From contig JAGVPM010000171.1 in NCBI GenBank assembly GCA_020052235.1, positions 1-44,404 of the forward strand: a stretch of 44,404 nucleotides of DNA. Reading direction: 5' to 3'. Positions 1 through 2,126 of the stretch are shown piece by piece; position 1 is the first letter of the stretch; the number at the start of each line of letters is the position of its first letter. A model generated the notes under the pieces. It did not search any database. It was given only the letters and a program-made list of their open reading frames with translations, and was not told the origin of the DNA. Source of the stretch: Candidatus Goldiibacteriota bacterium (lineage in GTDB: Bacteria; Oederibacteriota; JAAXVQ01). Position numbers and translations under genes: made by a program.

Positions 1-144
1 CGCTTCGCCTCCTTTGGCTTTGTTGATCACATAGGGCCATACCCCGGCCACACTATCAAGGCAATAAGAGAGGAATTTTTCAGATTTATTCGGTGGAATG
101 GCAGGCAAAATTTCGGGCCTTCAAACTGGGTAAACTTGGCATAA
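1..144 (+). CDS. C-terminal fragment of an unidentified protein, cut by the window edge
   Basis: Frame 1 is open from the first base to a TAA at 142-144, giving 47 residues with a protein-like composition (includes DHIGPYPGHTIKAIREEFF and ends in NWVNLA). The family is not recognised. The stop codon runs directly into a perfect 11-bp hairpin (141-174) that looks like a terminator on the same strand, which supports a real gene end here. The alternative is a chance open frame, since 47 codons is short. Confidence 0.4.
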   Translation, partial: RFASFGFVDHIGPYPGHTIKAIREEFFRFIRWNGRQNFGPSNWVNLA

Positions 145-174
145 ACCTCTCTGTTTCAACGCCGAGAGGTTTAT
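141..174 (+). terminator. hairpin after the partial left-edge gene
   Basis: Perfect 11-bp stem ATAAACCTCTC (141-151) with GAGAGGTTTAT (164-174), 12-nt loop, followed by a short T-rich tract. It starts at the TAA of the partial gene. Likely intrinsic terminator on the plus strand, though the T-tract is weak. Confidence 0.45.
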
Positions 175-198
175 TTGCATGGAAAAATATTTTCCGGA

Positions 199-268
199 AT
201 TTGGGTTAAGTCCCATTTTCAACAATGGTAAAATTTTAAAAAACAACCAAATGGGACTTAACCCAAAT
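199..268. repeat. inverted repeat with perfect 20-bp arms
   Basis: Arms at 199-218 and 249-268 are exact reverse complements, separated by an AT-rich 30-nt loop. The arms contain the 13-mer GACTTAACCCAAA (255-267, inverted at 200-212), which recurs at 451-463. The whole stretch 145-488 has no credible gene; it holds this repeat, another inverted repeat at 387-442 and the hairpin at 456-484. Confidence 0.75.
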
Positions 269-386
269 CACTTAACCTATTGCGATTTTAGAGAATCCGA
301 GAGAATTTCGGCTGGATTTTTGGGTTTTAGCTGCGAAGAGAATTTAGCTGATAGAAACCTGAGGAAAAATAGTTTTTAGCCAAAAA

Positions 387-442
387 CAGAAATAGCTTTG
401 GAATTCAAAGCGAAAACGCCGTTTTGTCCAAAGCTATTTCTG
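387..442. repeat. inverted repeat with perfect 16-bp arms
   Basis: CAGAAATAGCTTTGGA at 387-402 is mirrored exactly at 427-442 around a 24-nt centre that itself contains AAAACG/CGTTTT. It belongs to the noncoding hairpin cluster between the left-edge gene and tRNA-Gln. Confidence 0.7.
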
Positions 443-455
443 CTTTTTTCGACTT

Positions 456-484
456 AACCCAAACTTGGAAAGTTCGGGTTTTTT
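456..484 (+). terminator. rho-independent terminator facing right
   Basis: AACCCAAACTT (456-466) pairs with AAGTTCGGGTT (470-480, including one wobble pair) around a 3-nt loop, followed by a T-run to 484. The T-run is on the plus strand, so it would stop rightward transcription just before the convergent tRNA-Gln gene. On the minus strand the same hairpin could end the tRNA transcript but lacks a T-run. Confidence 0.5.
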
Positions 485-488
485 AAAC

Positions 489-564
489 TGGCTGCCGACC
501 CTGGAATCGAACCAGGAACACCCTGCTCCAGAGGCAGGTGCTCTGCCAATTGAGCTAGTCGGCA
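489..564 (-). tRNA. tRNA-Gln (anticodon CUG)
   Basis: The full cloverleaf is readable: 7-bp acceptor TGCCGAC/GTCGGCA, D-stem GCTC/GAGC with a GG-containing loop, anticodon stem CCTGC/GCAGG with loop CTCTGGA, 5-nt variable loop, T-stem CCTGG/CCAGG with TTCGATT. The 3' CCA is encoded. The weak U1-A72 pair and G73 are typical of bacterial tRNA-Gln. Its first ten nucleotides are also the last ten of gltX, including the gltX TAG stop. No promoter of its own was seen, so it is probably co-transcribed with gltX. Confidence 0.95.
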
Positions 565-2033
565 ATATTTATTCCCACGCTCGCCAAACCTGCGGCCAAG
601 CGCTTGATGGCGCGTTCTTTTCCAAGCAATTCCAATACTTCAAAAATCCCCGGCGAATTGGCCCGGCCCGTTACCGCGGCGCGCAGGGGATGAACCAAAT
701 CGCCGAATTTCACCTGTGTTTCGGCAATAAAAGCCTTCATCATTTCCTCAAGTCCCGCATGGGTGAAGGATTCTAGCATGCTCATCTTTTGGTGTAAAGC
801 CTTAAATAATTCCGCGCGCTCTTTAGCCAAGGCCAGCTTTTCCCCGGCCGCGTCGTCCAATTCCACGGTTTCCCCGAAAAAATATTGCACGTGCCGGGGC
901 AATTCATTGAATACCTTCACATGTTCCTTGACCAACAACGCCACCCGGCCGGCCCAGGCGCGCTGTTCTTCGCTTAAAGGTTCATGCAACAATCCCGCTT
1001 GGATGATAAACGGCACGGCGCGGGCAACATACTCTTCCGCGGGCAATTGGCGGATGTACACGCCGTTCATCCACTGCAATTTGGCAGGGTCGAATACTGC
1101 CGGATTTTTACTTACTTTTTTAAGCGAAAATTTTTCTATCAATTGCGCAGGCGTGAACAAGGTGGTTTTATCATCAAACGCCCAACCCAACAACGCCAAA
1201 TAATTTACCATGGTGTGCGGCAAAAAACCCTCGTCGGCATATGCACCTACGGATGTGGCGCCGTGCCGTTTGGAAAGCCGGGTTTTGTCTGATCCTAAAA
1301 TCATGGGCACATGCGCAAAGGCCGGCAAGGCTTCGCCCAGCGCCTGATACAAAATAATTTGCCGCGGGGTATTGGAAATATGGTCGTCGCCGCGGATGAT
1401 GTGCGTAATTTTCATGGCCGCGTCATCCACCACGGCTGCAAAATTATAGGTGGGCAAACCATTCGTCCGCGACAAAACATAATCGTCAAGCACTGAATTT
1501 TCAAATACCATTTTTCCGCGGATTTTATCATCAATAATCGTGCTGCCTGCATCCGGTATTTTCAAACGCACCACATACGGCTCACCGGCTTGCACCCGCG
1601 CTTTGGCCTCGGCCGGGTTTAAACGGCGGCAGGTCCCGTCATATTTGGGCTGCTGGCCCGTGGCCATGGCAAGTTCGCGTTTTTTTTCCAGGGTATCCGC
1701 GGAGCAGAAGCAATAATACGCCGACCCGCGTTCGAGCAAAAACTCGAGCTTTTCCCGGTATAAATCCAAGCGTTGGGTTTGAAAATACGGCCCAAAGGGT
1801 CCGCCTATTTCCGGACCTTCATCCCATGTCATGCCCAACCATTTTAAATCGTGCAAAATCATCTGCACGGACTCGTCCGTGGAACGCTCCGCATCCGTAT
1901 CTTCAATGCGCAGCACAAACACGCCGTTTTGGCGGCGGGCATATAGGTAATTAAACAGCGCCGTGCGCGCGCCGCCGATGTGCAAGTGCCCGGTGGGCGA
2001 GGGCGCGAAACGTACGCGAATTTGTTCCGTCAT
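555..2033 (-). CDS. gltX: glutamyl-tRNA synthetase
   Basis: Class I aminoacyl-tRNA synthetase that attaches glutamate to tRNA-Glu; in bacteria lacking GlnRS it also misacylates tRNA-Gln for GatCAB. Visible motifs are the HIGH-box HLHIGG near residues 16-21 after RFAPSPTG, a Cys-x-Cys...Cys segment in the zinc-site region (CFCSAD, later DGTCR), and the KMSKS variant RLSKRHG. Length 492 aa is normal. The frame is open upstream to a GTG, but ATG 2033 is chosen because the family begins just before RFAPSPTG, a GGTGG lies 8-9 nt upstream, and the longer version would start inside the bactofilin terminator. The stop codon lies inside tRNA-Gln. Whether this enzyme is discriminating cannot be judged from sequence alone. 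Confidence 0.97.
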   Translation of the reverse strand: MTEQIRVRFAPSPTGHLHIGGARTALFNYLYARRQNGVFVLRIEDTDAERSTDESVQMILHDLKWLGMTWDEGPEIGGPFGPYFQTQRLDLYREKLEFLLERGSAYYCFCSADTLEKKRELAMATGQQPKYDGTCRRLNPAEAKARVQAGEPYVVRLKIPDAGSTIIDDKIRGKMVFENSVLDDYVLSRTNGLPTYNFAAVVDDAAMKITHIIRGDDHISNTPRQIILYQALGEALPAFAHVPMILGSDKTRLSKRHGATSVGAYADEGFLPHTMVNYLALLGWAFDDKTTLFTPAQLIEKFSLKKVSKNPAVFDPAKLQWMNGVYIRQLPAEEYVARAVPFIIQAGLLHEPLSEEQRAWAGRVALLVKEHVKVFNELPRHVQYFFGETVELDDAAGEKLALAKERAELFKALHQKMSMLESFTHAGLEEMMKAFIAETQVKFGDLVHPLRAAVTGRANSPGIFEVLELLGKERAIKRLAAGLASVGINIAD

Positions 2034-2060: not shown

Positions 2061-2101
2061 AATAAAAAACCCTCCTGCCGCATATAGCTGCACGCAGGAG
2101 G
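2061..2101 (-). terminator. intrinsic terminator after bactofilin, in the gltX leader
   Basis: Stem CCTCCTGC/GCAGGAGG (2071-2078 with 2094-2101) with partly paired loop, followed on the minus strand by GTTTTTTATT. It ends the M23-bactofilin transcript. The gltX start is only 28 nt beyond the T-run, with no obvious promoter between. Confidence 0.85.
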
Positions 2102-2126
2102 GAAAACAAAATCACCTTGAGTTCCG

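Follow-up and report, generated by a model that had tools for sequence, protein, structure and literature searches.

In the window analysed here, a stretch of 44,404 nucleotides, the glutamyl-tRNA synthetase gene gltX ends inside the tRNA-Gln gene that follows it. This raises the question of whether the overlap is a selected tie between the synthetase mRNA and the maturation of the tRNA, as an earlier note on this DNA had proposed, or a by-product of local rearrangement. We consider it likely that an old gltX - tRNA-Gln(CUG) pair was rearranged recently and in this lineage alone, probably with neutral effect, and that the tRNA has a promoter of its own within gltX. The features on which the question turns are the following:

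555..2033, minus strand: gltX, glutamyl-tRNA synthetase of 492 aa (ORF; TIGR00464, 551 bits), with its TAG stop at 555-557.
489..564, minus strand: tRNA-Gln with anticodon CUG, encoded CCA and a U1-A72 pair (ARAGORN; RF00005, 62 bits).
555..564, minus strand: gltX/tRNA-Gln overlap of 10 nt, read from the sequence, the gltX 3' end being tRNA nucleotides 1-10.
381..442, minus strand: terminator-like inverted repeat CAGAAATAGCTTTGGA...TCCAAAGCTATTTCTG with TTTTT behind it, 3' of tRNA-Gln and partly picked up by the terminator scan.

The statement that the last ten bases of gltX, including TAG, are the first ten bases of tRNA-Gln(CUG) proved exact by the ORF and ARAGORN coordinates. Bases 564-555 (TGCCGACTAG) are common to the gltX 3' end and the tRNA 5' end, the ORF ends with ...GTG GGA ATA AAT ATT GCC GAC TAG, and the UAG stop corresponds to nucleotides U8-A9-G10 of the tRNA. 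The RNase P cut is expected between 565 and 564, that is, within the last Ile codon of gltX (AU/U). In alignment, the window GltX was 60-70% identical over its full length to the GltX proteins of the same order and matched its relatives up to their last residues, beyond which only 'AD' was extra. No frameshift error inside gltX is thus needed, and a sequencing frameshift within the gene was ruled out by this end-to-end alignment. The predicted MFE fold of the region kept the acceptor and T stems and left the leader unpaired, without recovering the full cloverleaf, and was set aside as evidence.

The gene order itself is old: gltX is followed by tRNA-Gln(CUG) in all five same-order relatives with a readable gltX 3' end, and tRNA-Glu(CUC) stands behind tRNA-Gln(CUG) in three of these five. 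In the relatives gltX has its own stop, which precedes the tRNA by 4 (G002), 4 (G005), 96 (G004), 43 (G006) and 55 (G007) nt. Within the genus, G001 lacked the gltX-tRNA-Gln locus and the contig of G003 ends within gltX. The earlier note had suggested looking for the same overlap in relatives; it was present in none of the five same-order gltX genes and in none of 13 more distant adjacent pairs, whose gaps ranged from 0 to about 132 nt. This distribution, together with the conserved promoter motif within gltX described below, speaks against the selected tie that the note had put forward.

Comparison with G002 suggested how the overlap may have arisen. From the last conserved Gly codon to the tRNA, G002 reads GGG-ATAGAAGTATAAATAC-TGCC (16 nt) and the window GGA-ATAAATAT-TGCC (8 nt). 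The window spacer is exactly 8 nt shorter, a difference that fits slippage between near-repeats, and from the outgroups we infer the direction of the change. A deletion of ~8 nt in the AT-rich spacer would have taken out the native gltX stop (TAA), after which translation would run two residues (A, D) further and end at the UAG already present in the tRNA. All six same-order tRNA acceptor-stem sequences would read GCC-GRY-TAG in the gltX frame; the latent stop is thus older than the overlap, and the tRNA was not adapted to the gene. The overlap is most likely neutral.

The spacing between protein genes and tRNAs in the order puts this event in perspective. For 133 tRNAs of the window genome and of the same-order genomes G002 and G004, we asked whether a co-directional ORF (100 codons or more) has its end inside the tRNA or at most 300 nt upstream of it. 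Such an ORF was present for 83 of the 133 tRNAs, and overlaps were recovered in two of these 83 pairs, namely gltX/tRNA-Gln(CUG) in the window and a tRNA-Leu(UAA) in G002; 13 further pairs had gaps of 1-20 nt. The gltX overlap is the rare tail of a distribution of tight ORF-tRNA spacing. Apparent overlaps at two other loci (L154, L090) were discarded, their ORF translations resembling antisense or non-coding frames. In the independent G002 case (L284), the stop of a 196-codon ORF occupies positions 16-18 of the tRNA, an overlap of 18 nt; the homologous ORF of the window genome (L017) leaves a gap of 7 nt to the same tRNA, which shows that such overlaps come and go. TAG occurs at positions 8-10 in 27 of 44 tRNAs of the window genome, and in 26 of 44 and 26 of 45 in the two relatives (G002, G004). 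The location of the gltX stop in a tRNA is therefore unremarkable, and a lost stop stands a good chance of immediate replacement, given the right frame.

We recovered within gltX a candidate promoter for the downstream tRNA:

770..798, minus strand: putative tRNA-Gln promoter TTTACA - 17 nt - TAGAAT with an extended -10 TG, at gltX codons 412-422, 205 nt upstream of the tRNA.

This putative site matches 10 of the 12 hexamer positions plus the TG. The motif TTTACA-17-TARAAT with TG lies at the same gltX codons (A/T/S-L-H ... L/V-E/K-S) in all six order members, the hexamers, the 17-nt spacing and the TG being preserved through synonymous choices (TTA, CTA/GTA). When sites were scored over the 12 hexamer positions plus the TG with a threshold of at least 11, each of the six genes had one sense-strand site per 1.47-kb gltX, and no site reached this score on the antisense strand of the six same-order genes. 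Under a codon-permutation null, 0-0.5% of trials produced such a site at any position within the last 450 nt, and resampling of synonymous codons at the position itself gave P values of 0.0005-0.0017 per gene (about 0.001). Synonymous conservation in gltX peaks at the promoter site (z about 7, the top of 457 windows), in a profile that is uneven, another region reaching z 6.6. The same consensus was found at most 250 nt upstream of 12 of 43, 11 of 44 and 8 of 45 tRNAs in three genomes, against about 0.2 expected. To judge from this conservation, tRNA-Gln(CUG) very probably has its own transcript from a predicted sigma-70-type promoter in gltX, and read-through of the gltX mRNA would be an additional source of the tRNA. 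With this putative promoter, the supply of tRNA-Gln would be independent of consuming gltX mRNA. The earlier note had named a separate promoter within gltX, giving most of the tRNA, as the finding that would undo its proposal; the six genes carry a putative promoter that answers to this in kind, recognized by its conserved motif. A probable tRNA promoter written into the synonymous codons of a synthetase gene across a whole order is perhaps the more useful by-product of this analysis.

The supposed regulatory tie also presumed that tRNA-Gln is a GltX substrate by way of GatCAB, and the earlier note had proposed a search for glnS and gatCAB. Both were found in the window genome (99.3% complete, 3.2 Mb), which encodes one GltX, one GlnRS (C127; TIGR00440, 733 bits), and GatA and GatB (C90). 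No match above the cut-off was obtained for AsnRS in this genome. GatCAB is thus accounted for by Asn-tRNA(Asn), and since GlnRS is present, tRNA-Gln can be charged directly and need not be a GltX substrate; this premise is consequently not supported here. Given GlnRS, the GltX of the window is probably of the discriminating type. At the anticodon-domain position that aligns with Thermus R358, the window has His and the five relatives have Lys, which is not diagnostic, so that an attempt to recognize GltX as a non-discriminating enzyme from this position was uninformative. GlnRS occurs throughout the order apart from G002 and is almost absent from the phylum outside the order, many genomes there having two GltX-like genes instead; from this distribution, GlnRS looks to have been acquired in the window's order. 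In relatives without GlnRS, tRNA-Gln could be a substrate of GltX.

On transcripts that run through both genes, the proposal that RNase P removes the gltX stop holds as logic, the geometry placing the cut before the stop; that the cut message would be nonstop and cleared by tmRNA, which is present in the window genome, is what we infer from this geometry. On full-length transcripts, RNase P and a ribosome terminating at the UAG would be in competition for the nucleotides of the acceptor and D stems, and each read-through message would give GltX until RNase P cut it. A weaker competition would be expected in G002 and G005 as well, their stops lying 4 nt from the tRNA; loss of the stop alone is the special feature of the window compared with these two genomes.

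These consequences could be read as a functional switch, in which maturation by RNase P makes the gltX mRNA nonstop, a given transcript yields either synthetase or tRNA, and fast RNase P or a shortage of ribosomes keeps GltX low. From geometry, a nonstop end is unavoidable on any cleaved full-length transcript, tmRNA is available, and the same model has been proposed, as untested, for selB-selC (PMC8124441). We nevertheless find a switch unlikely, as the overlap is missing from all five same-order relatives, an independent tRNA promoter motif is conserved, and GlnRS is present, so that tRNA-Gln is not the product pool that GltX would need to sense. A variant seems to us somewhat more doubtful still: with the stop lost, a shared transcript could serve either GltX synthesis or tRNA-Gln(CUG) maturation but not both, RNase P would set the GltX level through tmRNA-mediated turnover, and the intragenic promoter would keep up a basal tRNA supply.

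We give equally little credit to the idea that tRNA-Gln lacks its own promoter, relying wholly on gltX read-through, the conserved TTTACA/TARAAT being an accident of codon usage. Its best argument is distance, the site lying 205-305 nt from tRNA-Gln in the order, beyond most promoters of first-of-cluster tRNAs (mostly about 10-90 nt); it would nonetheless have to explain why hexamers, 17-nt spacing and TG are conserved in six of six genes, each at P about 0.001, and why the site is unique within each gltX. The least probable alternative in our view is an assembly or sequencing error, whereby a few spacer bases were lost in a metagenome-assembled contig and the native stop persists in the organism. 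The draft genome comprises 200 contigs, the contig breaks off in a repeat 0.5 kb from the locus, and no independent genome covers the locus; yet a collapse of 8 nt would be unusual in sequence that is unique and not homopolymeric, and both gltX and the tRNA are intact on either side. A neutral rearrangement, with the tRNA transcribed from within gltX, thus remains our preferred reading.

Arrangements of this kind have partial parallels. In bacterial mixed mRNA-tRNA operons, 5' maturation of the tRNA by RNase P separates a protein gene from a downstream tRNA on the same strand, and the stop codon normally stays with the mRNA. The gltX locus has the same gene-then-tRNA layout but differs in that the cut is expected before the stop. 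The closest published precedent is the selB-selC overlap, known from Alphaproteobacteria, Dyella/Luteibacter and Nitrospirae (Mukai, 2021, PMC8124441); in Dyella/Luteibacter the selB stop lies inside the tRNA-Sec gene, and formation of a nonstop mRNA by RNase P has been proposed (PMC8124441). In both cases the ORF of a translation factor enters a co-directional downstream tRNA gene, and close relatives without the overlap exist (PMC8124441). The selB-selC overlap, however, is widely conserved and reaches deep into the tRNA, at most through all of it, whereas that of gltX spans 10 nt in one species, and SelB carries its overlapping tRNA (PMC8124441) whereas GltX need not act on tRNA-Gln(CUG). 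The gltX case thus shares with the selB-selC type the co-directional genes and the stop inside the tRNA, but not the retention in related species. A coding end inside a tRNA, with alternative processing of one transcript, is likewise found in animal mitochondria, e.g., Armadillidium vulgare (cited in PMC8124441), although there in a compact organelle genome and here in a 3.2-Mb bacterial genome whose tRNA seemingly has its own promoter. Our search of the literature found no account of gltX being linked to tRNA-Gln and none of gltX stopping within a tRNA. The window offers a clean natural example of a protein gene surviving the loss of its stop, UAG being frequent at tRNA positions 8-10, and an example of an RNase P site placed before the stop codon of an essential mRNA.

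Linkage of gltX with tRNA-Gln(CUG), often followed by tRNA-Glu(CUC), recurs across lineages and phyla (loci L034-L063, L077-L156, L169-L248). The gltX - tRNA-Gln(CUG) linkage was present in 19 of the 30 top relatives, and nine of ten named loci with a co-directional tRNA at most 1.2 kb downstream of gltX had Gln(CUG) or Glu(CUC); gltX is usually linked to C34 isoacceptors, not to UUG/UUC. This recurrent gltX - tRNA-Gln(CUG) - tRNA-Glu(CUC) linkage in several phyla is a further useful by-product.

The 488 nt downstream of tRNA-Gln(CUG) (window 1-488) are repeated with 91% identity directly behind tRNA-Gln(UUG) (G000:C126:36330-36817), and both tRNA-Gln contigs end in this repeat. It looks like a larger repeated element that was either inserted at the 3' ends of tRNA-Gln genes or duplicated along with them; in G002, tRNA-Glu(CUC) stands in its place. 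A 47-aa ORF tail within it (window 1-141) had no Pfam match. On the other side of gltX lies one more feature:

2064-2102, minus strand: strong hairpin CCCTCCTGC...GCAGGAGGG with a run of six T after it, between a bactofilin-like gene (2127-2510) and gltX (2033).

This hairpin is a probable terminator; any promoter for gltX would then have to fit into about 30 nt, and gltX may depend on read-through past it.
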